Position numbers and translations under genes: made by a program. This document shows, piece after piece, positions 3,700 to 47,121 of a DNA stretch of 64,000 nt. Source of the DNA: Citrobacter amalonaticus. GTDB taxonomy: Bacteria; Pseudomonadota; Gammaproteobacteria; Enterobacterales; Enterobacteriaceae. Under the pieces are notes generated by a model. The model saw nothing but the letters and a program-made list of their open reading frames with translations. It was not told where the DNA came from and did no database searches. The stretch is taken from assembly GCF_018323885.1 (NCBI RefSeq), contig NZ_AP024585.1:2666001-2730000 (forward strand). Reading direction: 5' to 3'. The first letter of the stretch is position 1, and each line of letters begins with the position of its first letter.

Positions 3700-3729
3700 C
3701 GCCCATCTGCAACGGATGGGCGAAATTTT
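3700..3729 (+). terminator. Probable sdaA terminator
   Basis: An 8-bp stem CGCCCATC / GATGGGCG with a short loop begins about 33 bases after the sdaA stop and is followed by GAAATTTTG. The U-tract is short, so termination may be partial. Confidence 0.55.
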
Positions 3730-3817
3730 GCCCCCTTTCTCGTCTGCTCGCCAATTCCCCACTACACTTGCTCTGTTACGGTTGGCTTTTGTGGCTGACG
3801 GTTATCAGGCGGCCCGC

Positions 3818-5416
3818 ATGCAGACAGCACAACGGATCATAAAAAAATATCGTCGCAAACGTTTTATCCTGTGCATACTTTGCGCGCTCATTACGCTCAT
3901 CCTGACCCTGGGCGTCCGATTTATTTCACAGCGCAATTTAAATCACCACCACACCGTTACCTTTGCCTCCAGGGCGGTCGCCACGCTCGATGAAGTACTG
4001 CGTCCGTTGCAGAATGGTCGCGATATCCTGTTACCACTGATTGGCCTTCCCTGCTCCGCTACGCATCTCCCGCTGCGCAAACAGGCTGCCAGACTGCAAA
4101 CGGTACGCGCAATTGCCCTGGTCCAGCGCGGCATACTGTACTGTTCCAGCGTCTTTGGCTATCGCAATATCCCGGTTCATCAGCTTCAGCCCGACCTCCC
4201 TACCGCAAACGCGCAACTGCTGTTGTCCACCGATCCACTGCTGATTAAAGGCAGCCCGATTCTCGTCCAGTGGTACCCGGCCTCTCCCGACGGAAAGGAC
4301 GGAATACTGGAGATTATCAATATCGACCTGCTTACCAGGCTGCTGCTGGAACCGCGTAAGCCGCAGATTACCGCTGCCAGCCTGACAGTCGGCAACCGAC
4401 ATTTAATTTACGGGAGCGGCGTAGTACAGCGCCTGCCTGCGCTCAACGATGAGCAACGCTATCAACTCACCTCACAGCACTATCCCTTTACTATTAGCGT
4501 GACCGGGCCAGCGGCAGAGGCTCTGGCGATCAAAGCCCTGCCCGCGCAGTTGCCGCTGGCATTATTGCTCAGTCTGCTGGTGGGCTATCTGGCGTGGCTG
4601 GCCACCGCCAGTCGAATGAGTTTTTCCTGGGAGATTAACCTCGCGCTGGCACAGCGCGAATTTGAGCTTTTTTGCCAGCCGCTACTGAACGGGCGGACCG
4701 GACAGTGCATGGGGGTGGAGATCCTGCTGCGCTGGAATAATCCACGTCAGGGGTGGATTTCACCGGACGTCTTTATCCCGATTGCCGAAGAGCATCACCA
4801 GATCGCACCACTGACGCGTTATGTGCTAGCGGAAACCATTCGGCAACGTCATTTTTTCCCCATGAGCAGCCAGTTTCATATTGGTATTAATGTCGCTGCC
4901 AGCCATTTTCAGCAGGGTGAATTGCTAAAAGATCTCGATCAGTACTGGTTCAGTCAGCAGCCCATTCAGCAACTGGTGATAGAACTGACCGAGCGGGATG
5001 CGCTGCAGGATGTTGATTACCGAATCGTTCACGCGTTGCAACGGCAAAACATCAAGCTGGCGATCGATGATTTTGGAACCGGCAACAGTTCATTGTCATG
5101 GCTGGAAAAGTTGCGCCCTGACATTCTGAAAATTGATAAGTCTTTTACCCATGCGATTGGTACTGATGCGGTCAATTCAACGGTGACCGACATCATCATC
5201 GCCCTTGGGCAACGACTGAATATCGAACTGGTCGCGGAGGGAGTTGAAACGCAGGAGCAGGCGCAGCATCTGCGTCGCCACGGTGTGGATTTACTGCAGG
5301 GATTTTTATTTGCGAAGCCGATGCCGCTGCGCGATTTTCCGCAGTGGCTGGCGGGCAGTAACCCGCCGCCGCCCAGGCATAACGGACGCATCGCGCCCGT
5401 TATGCCCCTGCGTTAG
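3818..5416 (+). CDS. pdeD: CSS-domain cyclic-di-GMP phosphodiesterase
   Basis: A membrane phosphodiesterase that hydrolyses c-di-GMP (formerly YoaD). The frame is open upstream to 3716, but ATG 3818 gives MQTAQRIIKKYRR and 532 residues, the E. coli length. An N-terminal membrane segment is followed by a periplasmic CSS domain with LPCSATHLP and YCSSVFGY, a second membrane segment near residues 250-275, and a cytoplasmic EAL domain. The EAL domain shows EILLRW, the catalytic-site DDFGTGNSS and EGVETQEQ, so it looks enzymatically intact. It converges with yoaE, only 6 bases from that stop. Confidence 0.93.
   Translation: MQTAQRIIKKYRRKRFILCILCALITLILTLGVRFISQRNLNHHHTVTFASRAVATLDEVLRPLQNGRDILLPLIGLPCSATHLPLRKQAARLQTVRAIALVQRGILYCSSVFGYRNIPVHQLQPDLPTANAQLLLSTDPLLIKGSPILVQWYPASPDGKDGILEIINIDLLTRLLLEPRKPQITAASLTVGNRHLIYGSGVVQRLPALNDEQRYQLTSQHYPFTISVTGPAAEALAIKALPAQLPLALLLSLLVGYLAWLATASRMSFSWEINLALAQREFELFCQPLLNGRTGQCMGVEILLRWNNPRQGWISPDVFIPIAEEHHQIAPLTRYVLAETIRQRHFFPMSSQFHIGINVAASHFQQGELLKDLDQYWFSQQPIQQLVIELTERDALQDVDYRIVHALQRQNIKLAIDDFGTGNSSLSWLEKLRPDILKIDKSFTHAIGTDAVNSTVTDIIIALGQRLNIELVAEGVETQEQAQHLRRHGVDLLQGFLFAKPMPLRDFPQWLAGSNPPPPRHNGRIAPVMPLR
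5376..5406. repeat. Perfect 10-bp hairpin in the pdeD 3' end
   Basis: GGCATAACGG (5376-5385) and CCGTTATGCC (5397-5406) form a perfect 10-bp inverted repeat within the last codons of pdeD, just before the convergent yoaE stop. There is no U-tract on either side. It may damp read-through or protect the mRNA 3' end, which is an inference. Confidence 0.5.
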
Positions 5417-12489: not shown

Positions 12490-14235
12490 TTAGCGCGTGG
12501 AGTGTGTCGGCGAATTGCTCTGCATCACCAGCAAATGGCTGGAGTCGGCGGGCATCCCATCCGGTTTGACGTTTTCCAGTCGCAGCACATCGCCCATTAT
12601 CTGGCTGAAAACCGGTGCCGACACCGCGCCACCGTAGTAGGCCCCGTTCTGCGGATCGTTGATCACTACCACCAGCGCAAACTTCGGGTTGCTTGCCGGT
12701 GCCACCCCTGCGGTGTAAGCCACATATTTATCAATGTATTTACCGTCAGCGCCGATCTTCTTCGCCGTCCCGGTTTTAACCGCCACGCGATAATCCCGGA
12801 CCGCCGCCTTCGTCCCACCGCCCCCCGGCAGGGCGACGCTTTCCATCATGTGCGCCACCTGTCTGACCAGCGCTTCCGACATGACACGCTTGCCGATAAC
12901 GGGCGGGTCGATGCGCGTGATAGAGAGTGGTCGGTACAGGCCAAAACTGCCAATCGTGGCATAGACGTGCGCCAGTTGCAGCGGCGTCACCATCAGGCCG
13001 TAGCCAAAGGCAAAGGTCGCGCGATCCAGATCGCTCCAGTAACGACGTTGCGGCATCACCCCCTGGCTCTCACCGGTGAGTCCCAGCCCCGTGGGTTGAC
13101 CAAAGCCAAAGCGGCGATAGGTATCGACGACACGCTGGACGGGCATTGCTAATGAAAGATGCGAAACCCCGGTGTCACTCGATTTTTGCAAAATGCCGGT
13201 CAGCGTCAGTTCCGGATAAAAGCCCACATCGCGAATCCGATGCCCGTCGAGGTAAAACGGATGCGTGTCGATCACGCTATCAGGCTGGACAATCCCTTGC
13301 TCAAGCGCCGTCATGATAACCAGCGGTTTCACCGTCGAGCCCGGCTCGAAAGTATCGCTAATCGCACGATTGCGAAAATCATCAAGCACCGCACCATCAC
13401 GATTGTTGGGGTTAAAATCGGGGAAGCTGGCCATCGCCAGGATCTCACCGGTGGCAATGTTCACCAGCACGGCGGCGCCGGATTCCGCTTTGTTCCAGCT
13501 AACCGCATTGTCCAGCGCATCCTCGGTGACGGTCTGCAGCCGCTCATCAATGCTGAGTTGTAGTTCATGCGCAGGCACAGGATTAACTTCCGTGATGTTT
13601 TCAATCACGTGACCGAATTTATCTTTGCGGACCAGGCGGGAGCCCGGCTTTCCGATTAACTGTGCGTTAAAACTTTTCTCAACCCCTTCAATGCCCTGCC
13701 CATCGATATTGGTGAAACCAATCAGATTCGCCGCGACATGTCCTGCCGGATAAAAGCGCCGGGACTCTTCGCGCAAATTGATGCCGGGCAGGTTCAGCTT
13801 ATCGATCCACTGCGCCTGTTGAGGAGAGACCTGACGCGCAAGATAGATAAACCTTGCCGACGGATCGTGGTTAACGCGCGCCGCCAGGTTCGTGAGTGAA
13901 AGATGTAGCGTGTTGGCCAGCGCCTGCCAGCGTTCGTTGTCGCCTACGCCTCCTTTGCTCAATAACGTGTGGGGGTCAGCCCACACCGCATTCACCGGTA
14001 CGCTGACCGCCAATGGTCGCCCCTGCCGATCGGTGATCATTCCACGCGGCGATGCCGTGGTGACTTCACGCAATGAGCGCATATCTTCTTGTTTGACCAG
14101 ACGGTCGGGTTCAACAATCTGCAACCAGGCAACGCGCCCTAGCAACAGTCCCAGGCTCAGCAATATGGCGATACAAAGCAGCGCAAAACGCAGCGGTGTG
14201 AAACTTCGCACCGTACCATCATTTTTCTTTTTCAC
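12490..14235 (-). CDS. FtsI/PBP3-like class B penicillin-binding protein (PBP3SAL type)
   Basis: A second septal-type transpeptidase, clearly homologous to FtsI but absent at this locus in E. coli K-12. GTG 14235, preceded by GGAGAACAG, gives a 581-residue protein. ATG 14253 (587 residues) is the alternative. One N-terminal membrane helix is followed by the dimerisation domain (SPRGMITDRQGRPLAVS) and a transpeptidase domain with EPGSTVKP (Ser300, Lys303), KSSD at 351-354 and KTGT at 487-490. The middle motif is SSD rather than the SSN of E. coli FtsI. Salmonella PBP3SAL, which builds septa in acidic conditions, sits in the same context. That role is inferred here. Confidence 0.9.
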   Translation of the reverse strand: MKKKNDGTVRSFTPLRFALLCIAILLSLGLLLGRVAWLQIVEPDRLVKQEDMRSLREVTTASPRGMITDRQGRPLAVSVPVNAVWADPHTLLSKGGVGDNERWQALANTLHLSLTNLAARVNHDPSARFIYLARQVSPQQAQWIDKLNLPGINLREESRRFYPAGHVAANLIGFTNIDGQGIEGVEKSFNAQLIGKPGSRLVRKDKFGHVIENITEVNPVPAHELQLSIDERLQTVTEDALDNAVSWNKAESGAAVLVNIATGEILAMASFPDFNPNNRDGAVLDDFRNRAISDTFEPGSTVKPLVIMTALEQGIVQPDSVIDTHPFYLDGHRIRDVGFYPELTLTGILQKSSDTGVSHLSLAMPVQRVVDTYRRFGFGQPTGLGLTGESQGVMPQRRYWSDLDRATFAFGYGLMVTPLQLAHVYATIGSFGLYRPLSITRIDPPVIGKRVMSEALVRQVAHMMESVALPGGGGTKAAVRDYRVAVKTGTAKKIGADGKYIDKYVAYTAGVAPASNPKFALVVVINDPQNGAYYGGAVSAPVFSQIMGDVLRLENVKPDGMPADSSHLLVMQSNSPTHSTR

Positions 14236-14383
14236 CTGTTCTCCGGCAAACATGATATTCAGGTGACTGATTTAACGGGAATAACGGCGGGAAAGCGGTG
14301 AAAACTATGCTAATAACATCACGGCTTTGCAACAAAGCGCTAACGGAGGAGGCATTCAGACATACTTTGAAGGAAGATGAATG

Positions 14384-43544: not shown

Positions 43545-44414
43545 ATGAATATGCTGGAAAAGATCCAGTCTCAACTGGAACATTTGAGCAAATCTGAACG
43601 CAAAGTCGCCGATGTCATCATCGCCTCACCCGAGCGGACCATCCATTGCAGTATTGCCACGCTTGCGCAGGAAGCCAACGTCAGTGAACCGACGGTGAAC
43701 CGTTTTTGTCGCAGCATGGAAACCCGGGGCTTCCCCGATTTTAAACTGCATCTGGCACAAAGTCTGGCAAATGGTACCCCTTATGTTAATCGTAATGTGG
43801 ATGAAGATGACAGTGTCGAATCCTATACGGGCAAGATTTTCGAATCCGCGATGGCCAGTCTTGACCACGTTCGCCAGTCGCTGGACAAATCGGCGATCAA
43901 CCGCGCGGTGGATTTACTGACGCAGGCCAAGAAAATCGCTTTCTTTGGCCTGGGGTCGTCCGCCGCCGTCGCCCATGATGCCATGAACAAGTTTTTCCGT
44001 TTCAACGTTCCGGTTATCTACTCCGACGACGTCGTTTTGCAACGGATGAGCTGTATGAATTGTAGTGACGATGACGTGGTCGTGCTGATTTCGCATACCG
44101 GTCGCACCAAGAGTCTGGTCGAACTGGCGCAGCTTGCACGTGATAACGATGCCATGGTGATCGCGTTAACCTCCGCTGATACGCCGCTGGCGCGTGAAGC
44201 CACGCTGGCAATTACGCTCGATGTGCCGGAAGATACTGACATTTATATGCCCATGGTCTCTCGACTTGCGCAGTTGACCGTGATAGATGTGCTGGCTACG
44301 GGATTTACTTTGCGCCGTGGGGCAAAATTCAGAGATAACTTGAAGCGTGTCAAAGAAGCGCTCAAGGAATCGCGTTTTGATAAAGAACTGCTCATCAAGA
44401 GTAATGACCGCTAA
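43545..44414 (+). CDS. hexR: RpiR-family regulator HexR
   Basis: HexR (YebK) represses central carbon genes and is released by KDPG. The 289-residue protein has an RpiR-type helix-turn-helix (about 1-77, IATLAQEANVSEPTVNRFCR) and a sugar isomerase (SIS) domain (about 120-265, with FFGLGSSAAVAHDAMNKF and LISHTGRTKS). Its position beside zwf, edd and eda matches its role. In other gammaproteobacteria it also controls gap, pyk and glk genes. Confidence 0.95.
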   Translation: MNMLEKIQSQLEHLSKSERKVADVIIASPERTIHCSIATLAQEANVSEPTVNRFCRSMETRGFPDFKLHLAQSLANGTPYVNRNVDEDDSVESYTGKIFESAMASLDHVRQSLDKSAINRAVDLLTQAKKIAFFGLGSSAAVAHDAMNKFFRFNVPVIYSDDVVLQRMSCMNCSDDDVVVLISHTGRTKSLVELAQLARDNDAMVIALTSADTPLAREATLAITLDVPEDTDIYMPMVSRLAQLTVIDVLATGFTLRRGAKFRDNLKRVKEALKESRFDKELLIKSNDR

Positions 44415-44465
44415 TAGCAATAATAAGTACGACTTAAATTCGTCATCCGGTTTTGTTCGCTATGC

Positions 44466-44596
44466 TATGTAGACCCTACGTAATTCGAGTTGTGGAAAGG
44501 CGGCAACACAGCGAATCTTCAGGAGCTTACTGAAATCAGTGACTGGGGTGAGCAAGGAGGCCAACGCACAGGCAACCAGAAGTATGACAGGGGTAA
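44466..44596. repeat. ERIC (IRU) repeat upstream of pykA
   Basis: The segment contains the ERIC core ATCTTCAGGAGCTTACTGAAATCAGTGACTGGGGTGAGC (44515-44553), close to the known ERIC1R/ERIC2 sequences, with the characteristic outer arms CCTACGTAATTCGAGTTG (left) and CAACCAGAAGTATGACAGGG (right). It is about 127-131 bases, the standard size, and lies in the likely 5' leader of pykA. Confidence 0.88.
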
Positions 44597-44661
44597 GGTT
44601 TTCAGAACTGCCGGATCAATTTTCACGCAACACCTAGTTGTTTCAGTCAACGGAGTATTAC

Positions 44662-46105
44662 ATGTCCAGAAGGCTTCGCAGAACCAAAATCGTTACGACA
44701 TTAGGCCCGGCTACCGACCGCGATAACAATCTTGAAAAGATTATCGCTGCTGGTGCTAACGTCGTGCGGATGAATTTCTCTCACGGTTCGCCAGAAGATC
44801 ATAAAATGCGCGCGGATAAAGTTCGTGAGATCGCTGCCAGATTGGGACGCCACGTAGGCATTCTGGGTGATCTCCAGGGGCCAAAAATTCGCGTCTCTAC
44901 CTTTAAAGAAGGCAAAGTATTCCTCAACATCGGTGACAAATTTCTCCTGGATGCCAACCTGGGTAAAGGTGAAGGCGACAAGGAAAAAGTCGGCATTGAC
45001 TACAAAGGTCTGCCAGCAGACGTGGTACCTGGCGACATTCTGCTGCTCGACGATGGCCGCGTGCAGTTAAAAGTGCTGGAAGTTCAGGGTATGAAAGTGT
45101 TCACGGAAGTGACCGTGGGCGGCCCGCTCTCCAACAACAAAGGCATCAACAAGCTGGGCGGCGGTCTCTCCGCAGAAGCCCTGACCGAAAAAGACAAAGC
45201 CGATATCGTGACCGCCGCTCAGATTGGCGTTGACTATCTGGCTGTCTCCTTCCCGCGTTGCGGCGAAGATCTGAACTACGCTCGCCGCCTGGCGCGTGAT
45301 GCGGGCTGTGATGCCAAGATTGTGGCCAAAGTTGAGCGTGCGGAAGCGGTCTGCGACCAGAATGCGATGGATGACATCATTCTGGCTTCTGACGTGGTGA
45401 TGGTCGCTCGTGGCGACCTCGGCGTTGAGATTGGCGATCCGGAACTGGTCGGCATCCAGAAGACGTTGATTCGTCGCGCACGTAAGTTGAACCGCGCGGT
45501 GATTACCGCGACCCAGATGATGGAGTCGATGATCACCAACCCAATGCCAACCCGTGCGGAAGTGATGGACGTCGCGAACGCCGTGCTGGATGGTACTGAT
45601 GCGGTCATGCTGTCAGCCGAAACGGCGGCAGGCCAGTACCCGGCGGAAACCGTCGCGGCGATGGCGCGCGTCTGCCTGGGTGCAGAAAAAAATCCCCAGC
45701 ATCAATGTCTCCAAACATCGTCTGGACGTGCAGTTCGACAATGTTGAAGAAGCGATTGCGATGTCCGCCATGTACGCGGCAAACCACCTGAAAGGGGTGA
45801 CCGCGATCATTACCATGACGGAATCCGGTCGTACTGCGCTGATGACTTCTCGCATCAGCTCCGGCCTGCCGATTTTCGCCATGTCACGTCATGAGCGTAC
45901 GCTGAACCTGACGTCGCTGTACCGTGGCGTCACGCCGGTGCATTTCGACAGTGCGGCGGAAGGCGTTGTCGCAGCAAGCGAAGCGGTGAATCTGCTGCGT
46001 GACAAAGGCTACCTGGTGTCCGGCGATCTGGTGATCGTGACGCAGGGCGACGTGATGAGCACCATTGGCTCAACCAATACCACGCGTATTCTGACCGTCG
46101 AGTAA
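44662..46105 (+). pseudogene. pykA: Pyruvate kinase II, +1 frameshift in an A7 tract
   Basis: PykA makes pyruvate and ATP from phosphoenolpyruvate. The start ATG 44662 ([16 protein letters not shown]-like CGGAG upstream) and the end (TRILTVE) match E. coli, but the frame breaks at 45686-45692, where GAA-AAA-ATC has become GAAAAAAATC with seven As instead of six. Read as given, the product stops at 45747 after 361 residues and loses the C-terminal regulatory domain. Removing one A restores exactly 480 residues. The rest of both halves is well conserved ([23 protein letters not shown]), so the lesion is recent or a sequencing error. Confidence 0.93.
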
Positions 46106-46120
46106 TCGACGGCTGATACA

Positions 46121-46152
46121 AAGAGGCCTCTCATGTGAGAGGCCTTTTTTTA
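46121..46152 (+). terminator. pykA / lpxM terminator
   Basis: AGGCCTCTCA (46124-46133) and TGAGAGGCCT (46136-46145) form a long stem followed by seven Ts, just after pykA and reaching the convergent lpxM stop. Confidence 0.92.
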
Positions 46153-47121
46153 TTTGAGGGGGTAGAGATCTTTGCGCTTATACGGCTGGATCTCGCCCGG
46201 TTTGCGGGTCTTCAGCAGTTTCAGGATCCAGGTATATTGCTCGGGATGCGGGCCAACAAAAATTTCCACCTCTTCATTCATTCGACGGGCAATAGTGTTG
46301 TCATCTGCGGTCAGAAGATCGTCCATGGGCGGGCGCACCTGAATCGTCAACCGGTGGGTATCGCCGTTGTATACCGGGAACAGCGGAATGACGCGCGCCC
46401 GACACACTTTCATCAGTCGACCAATGGCCGGCAACGTCGCTTTATAGGTGGCAAAGAAATCGACAAACTCACTGTGTTCAGGACCATGATCCTGATCAGG
46501 CAGATAATATCCCCAGTACCCCTGACGAACAGACTGAATGAACGGCTTGATGCCGTCATTACGCGCATGCAGGCGACCACCAAAGCGGCGGCGCACCGTG
46601 TTCCAGACGTAATCAAACACCGGGTTTCCCTGATTATGGAACATTGCCGCCATCTTCTGGCCCTGAGACGCCATTAACATTGCCGGAATATCCACACCCC
46701 AGCCATGCGGCACCAGGAAGATCACCTTTTCGTTGTTGCGGTGCATCTCCTCGATGATCTCAAGCCCTTCCCAGTCAACGCGCGACTGAATTTTTTCCGG
46801 ACCGCGAATCGCCAGTTCCGCCATCATCGCCATGGCCTGCGGCGCAGTTGAAAACATCTCATCGACGATAGCCTCGCGCTCAGCTTCGCTACGTTCCGGA
46901 AAGCACAATGACAGGTTAATCAACGCCCGGCGACGCGAGCTTTTACCCAGACGCCCGGCGAAACGGCCCAGTTTTGCCAGCAGCGGGTCGCGAAAGGATG
47001 CAGGCGTTAAGGCGATACCCGCCATCGCCGCGACGCCCAGCCATGCGCCCCAGTAACGCGGATGGCGAAAAGATTTCTCAAACTCAGGGATGTACTCACT
47101 ATTATTTTTTTTTGTTTCCAT
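46150..47121 (-). CDS. lpxM: Lipid A myristoyltransferase LpxM (MsbB)
   Basis: LpxM adds the last acyl chain (myristate) to Kdo2-lipid A, giving hexa-acylated lipid A at the inner membrane. ATG 47121 gives [14 protein letters not shown] and 323 residues as in E. coli. The open frame reaches 47211 without family support. An N-terminal membrane segment is followed by the LpxL/LpxM catalytic HX4D motif, here HGWGVD in [13 protein letters not shown], and later PDQDHGPE. Confidence 0.96.

Follow-up and report, generated by a model that had tools for sequence, protein, structure and literature searches.

Does this isolate carry a broken gene for pyruvate kinase II (PykA), or does its sequence record hold one A too many? 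The window, a stretch of 64,000 nucleotides, covers C1:2666001-2730000 of the genome under study (G000; 5.07 Mb in four contigs). It contains a pykA gene that begins with an ATG at 44662, ends with a stop at 46105 and is divided between two reading frames. The relevant features are the following.

43545 to 44414, forward strand: hexR, the upstream neighbour, intact
44662 to 45747, forward strand: frame 0 product of pykA, 361 aa, with the whole barrel domain, 18 out-of-frame residues and a stop
45686 to 45692, forward strand: A7 tract, in relatives a six-base tract in frame
45694 to 45697, forward strand: CCC-C, with CCC as codon 345 of frame 0; a +1 slip there leads into the frame of the C-terminal domain
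45695 to 46105, forward strand: second pykA frame, 136 residues, with the whole C-terminal alpha/beta domain
46150 to 47121, reverse strand: lpxM (msbB), convergent and downstream of pykA, intact; the start was chosen where the family match begins

In the assembled sequence seven As occupy exactly positions 45686-45692, where a reading made from the sequence only had placed the extra base. They are flanked by G (45685) on the 5' side and by TCCCC (45693-45697) on the 3' side. Counted from ATG 44662, the frame 0 codons across the tract are GAA AAA AAT CCC CAG, and this frame is closed after 361 residues by a stop codon at 45745-45747 (the ORF list gives 369 aa for the same frame, counted from an upstream TTG). 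The downstream frame is offset by one base and remains open until 46105. A -1 ribosomal shift at the tract is a dead end with a stop after 32 codons, as the sequence-only reading had foreseen.

The break is located at the hinge between the two domains of PykA, both of which are whole, a point that the sequence-only reading did not contain. The barrel domain (PF00224) is complete in residues 6-331 of the frame 0 product (profile positions 2-328 of 328). The C-terminal alpha/beta domain (PF02887) is likewise complete in residues 19-133 of the second piece (profile 1-114 of 114), but it sits in another reading frame than the barrel, and a single frame encoding all of PykA is not found. In the NCBIfam model NF004491 the first half covers positions 3-346 and the second 343-476 of 477. 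The neighbourhood hexR-pykA-lpxM is present, and the genes adjoining pykA are open. Identity at the locus amounts to 83% with E. coli and 86% with Salmonella records.

Two further genes in the window may be recorded here. Positions 12490-14253 (reverse strand) encode an FtsI-like penicillin-binding protein of 587 aa (NF011685, 911 bits vs a cut-off of 737), which presumably resembles the extra PBP3 of Salmonella. An EAL-type protein of 566 aa is encoded at 3716-5416 (forward strand); its nearest model, a c-di-GMP phosphodiesterase, is matched with 332.6 bits vs a cut-off of 461.

We give an even chance to a recent, ordinary replication-slippage mutation, in which the pykA tract was lengthened from six As to seven in the line of this isolate. 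Translation would then leave the frame at codon 344 and end at 45747, yielding a barrel of 361 residues without the C-terminal domain. In pyruvate kinases the C-terminal domain provides contacts between subunits and houses the effector site, and PykA activity is responsive to AMP. Since this domain would be missing, little or no PykA activity probably remains, and the role of pyruvate kinase would be left to PykF. The dependence on PykF that had been proposed for the case of a PykA loss is compatible with the genome, in which pykF is intact (470 residues, 984 bits vs a PykF cut-off of 686). A second copy of pykA was not found; DNA matches in the genome at E <= 0.001 consist of pykA and two pieces of pykF.

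The alternative is a residual homopolymer error of the assembly, the cell itself having six As and a normal, intact pykA, and it falls only slightly short of an even chance. The change is a single base in an A run, and a one-base homopolymer difference is a typical residual error of long-read sequencing. The open genes beside pykA point in the same direction. So does the tract elsewhere in the genus, where all seven other genomes have six bases in frame between G and T (GAAAAAATC in six, GAAAAGATC in one; codons GAA, AAA or AAG, ATC and CCC). Thus the six-base tract claimed earlier for intact relatives was seen in every one of them.

A DNA search with pykA gave a match in 51 other genomes, and 29 of these became loci. 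A seven-A pykA occurs in none of the 26 loci that fitted the motif (the regular expression did not fit L017, L021 and L026). Across the family, a degenerate seven-A pattern matches 11 of 392 genomes, which is the chance level because a reversed control gave 12. Ten of these 11 matches became loci (G291 was left out), and the window's own is the sole one in pykA; no other seven-A pykA was found in the nine of ten non-own matches that were examined. The in-frame pattern matches 290 of the 392 genomes, a number that is no denominator for pykA because the pattern also matches other genes. Seven As as such are common, with 47 A/T runs of exactly this length in the coding sequence aligned to the nearest relative (G001).

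True losses of pykA seem to be rare, since E. coli records keep the gene. Among 5426 E. coli genomes 5375 have a pykA match, and in every one of these 80% or more of the gene lies at a single locus. The 60 rows listed, spread over the ranking, all span bases 1-1443 and carry the annotation pyk, which is also given in all 60 rows listed in a second search; this check of the annotation concerns the rows listed each time, and a frameshift in the remaining records would not show. The assembly error gains weight from this rarity, and the probabilities given here take account of it. At the protein level, no protein of 361 residues was found among the 120 listed of 1627 matches to the frame 0 product (8000 candidates scored), in a database in which sister strains are hidden because it is clustered at 90%. 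Four proteins inspected from this search read as two chimaeras, one duplication and one deletion. Plasmid records searched with the locus gave no informative match.

The age of the change can be estimated from substitutions. Compared with G001, the two halves of pykA show no nonsynonymous and 39 synonymous differences (25 + 14) over 476 codons. On the branch of the studied genome, polarised with two further relatives (G002 and G003), the values are 0 and 15, respectively. Each of the remaining 11 genes compared with G001 has 1 to 29 nonsynonymous differences, and pykA is the most constrained among the 12. An old, decayed pseudogene is ruled out by these counts, which give no sign of relaxed selection. 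Since both halves are free of nonsynonymous change, the extra A is either very recent or unreal; the same counts are in line with an assembly error.

The quality of the assembly argues in the opposite direction. Its completeness is 100 and its contamination 0.06. In 656 kb aligned to G001, length differences affect 8 of the 1051 coding A/T runs of at least five bases and none of the 203 G/C runs, although tests of this kind would overlook a handful of errors per genome. The label "coding" refers here to mechanical ORFs of G001 of about 150 aa or more, and therefore some of the eight differing runs lie in probable non-genes. Outside coding sequence, run lengths differ in 32 of 577 cases (not polarised). 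Private lengths of runs of at least four bases, determined over 200 kb in four genomes, amount to 5/1015 in the studied genome vs 3/1020, 3/1018 and 2/1016 in G001, G002 and G003. The pykA tract is missing from these five private runs because the tract of G003 contains a G. The small surplus is accounted for by the longer branch of the studied genome, with 249 vs 151 synonymous changes for G001 (about 1.65 times, summed over the genes compared). Elsewhere in the family, a genome of 5.1 Mb with a completeness of 49% (G059) might be a frameshift-rich assembly, in contrast to the one studied here.

A scan for split genes gave a similar picture. Over 1 Mb of the studied genome, 808 mechanical ORFs of G001 were compared: 627 stay open along 93% or more of their length, 48 are matched but not open and 133 are unmatched. 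Most of the non-open ones were set aside by judgement as over-extended starts or non-genes. Of the 36 listed among the 48, 11 show two frames and 25 in-frame stops only. Among the 11 listed two-frame cases, only that of pykA combines a break in the body of the gene with a protein identity of 99% or more to either side of it. In the other ten, the break lies in the first ~45 residues or near the C-terminus, or at least one side has less than 91% identity and the ORF reads, in our own judgement, like a non-gene. Frame changes near a C-terminus were seen at 2625021 and 2567654 of the genome. Hence, apart from pykA, no conserved gene was found over 1 Mb with a clear frame break in its body, and one such split in 1 Mb speaks against frequent error. 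Of the ORFs in the first 200 kb, 161 are intact and 11 are not (most are absent or differ at an end), with pykA as the sole clear frameshift.

In the reverse scan, 646 of 839 ORFs of the studied genome are open in G001 and 31 more are matched. We judged none of its seven two-frame cases to be a clear split, setting apart one ORF of 210 aa (2173917-2174549 of the studied genome) that is split in G001. In-frame stops occur in the best piece in 31 of 48 cases in the first direction and in 17 of 31 in the reverse direction. Many stops in the studied genome fall within the initial 15% of an ORF, and the protein identity of the mid-ORF cases is mostly equal to or below the DNA identity. Some of the mid-ORF stops may be true nonsense changes; an example is the counterpart of G001 4651247-4652872 (541 aa), with two stops at 92.6%. 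Outside the window, at C1 2455566-2455770, only the start of a 708-aa gene of G001 aligns, with a four-base insertion. This gene reads like a GGDEF/EAL protein, and its copy in the studied genome is possibly another broken gene.

A generally homopolymer-faulty assembly is ruled out by the run-length comparisons together with the split-gene scan, and these are compatible with one residual error. The sequence-only reading had left a choice between mutation and sequencing error. Its frameshift stands and a generally faulty assembly does not; the choice itself, now between a slippage mutation and a single assembly error, is nearly even.

Could the two frames be rejoined? It is improbable that the A7 / CCC-C junction is leaky or reversible, with a small fraction of ribosomes (or polymerases) restoring the frame, or with a tract that alternates between six and seven As within the population. 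Ribosomes are known to slip by +1 at CCC-C (PMC4519876, PMC7803779), and here this motif follows the tract directly in frame 0, so that a +1 slip reaches the frame of the C-terminal domain. Slip rates of about 1-1.4% are given in these two reports for E. coli reporters that have CCC-C at codon 2. However, codon 2 is there described as the most shift-prone position (PMC4519876), and rates inside a gene should therefore be lower. The fold z-score of -0.08 for 45640-45760 is nothing beyond chance, and no stimulating RNA structure was detected in this segment. No Rfam match was found within 44400-46300. The seven As are not conserved in relatives: a slippery tract of the kind expected for programmed frameshifting or slippage is absent from pykA in all seven other genomes of the genus. 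Nothing suggests a programmed element at the junction.

Slippage of RNA polymerase on the A7 tract had been proposed earlier as a source of some intact product. A poly-A tract does rescue tssM in Citrobacter rodentium in this way, but it consists of 11 As (PMC4256274) vs seven in pykA. For the E. coli enzyme, no reporter activity is detectable on runs shorter than seven Ts or eight As, and insertions on A7 amount to 0.39% (PMC6260861), which places A7 at or close to the limit of detection. On 7-11 As the efficiency of insertion exceeds that of deletion by a factor of two or more; deletions on such tracts are thereby implied, no more than half as efficient as insertions. Likewise, insertions predominate in A/T runs of E. 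coli and deletions in homopolymers are rare (PMC5574713). A net loss of one base is needed in pykA. On these published values slippage would be very low and in the wrong direction, and transcript slippage was rejected as the main rescue. A +1 slip at CCC-C, which the sequence-only reading had not considered, would be the better candidate, at a low level; traces of near-full-length PykA may arise in this way. A more elaborate version appears very improbable, namely that the A7 / CCC-C hinge is a leaky reversible switch, which would produce mostly barrel-only PykA and ~1% or less full-length enzyme via +1 slips (with Asn for Ile at position 344), while slippage of the tract toggles PykA.

If the recent slippage mutation is genuine, this isolate represents a naturally occurring PykA near-null that relies on PykF, and both its metabolic model and the way it responds to AMP-type pyruvate kinase control would be altered. 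If it is unreal, the sequence record holds a one-base error. Either way, the break in pykA belongs to a familiar, ordinary class of gene breaks.

The locus resembles PykA of E. coli and its relatives (NF004491 / TIGR01064) in that both halves match NF004491, and the gene order hexR-pykA-lpxM-mepM is common to E. coli and this genome. Intact copies are encoded in one frame, whereas the halves lie in different frames here. With the slippage of tssM1 in Citrobacter rodentium it shares a frame break at an A run in an enterobacterial gene; in tssM1, however, eleven As give about 20% slippage (PMC4256274), whereas pykA has seven As and would need slippage in the opposite, disfavoured direction. The in-frame CCC followed by C beside a one-base insertion recalls +1 suppression of the sufB type. 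There the suppressor tRNA is a mutant (PMC7803779), whereas the wild-type background amounts to about 1-1.4% at codon 2.
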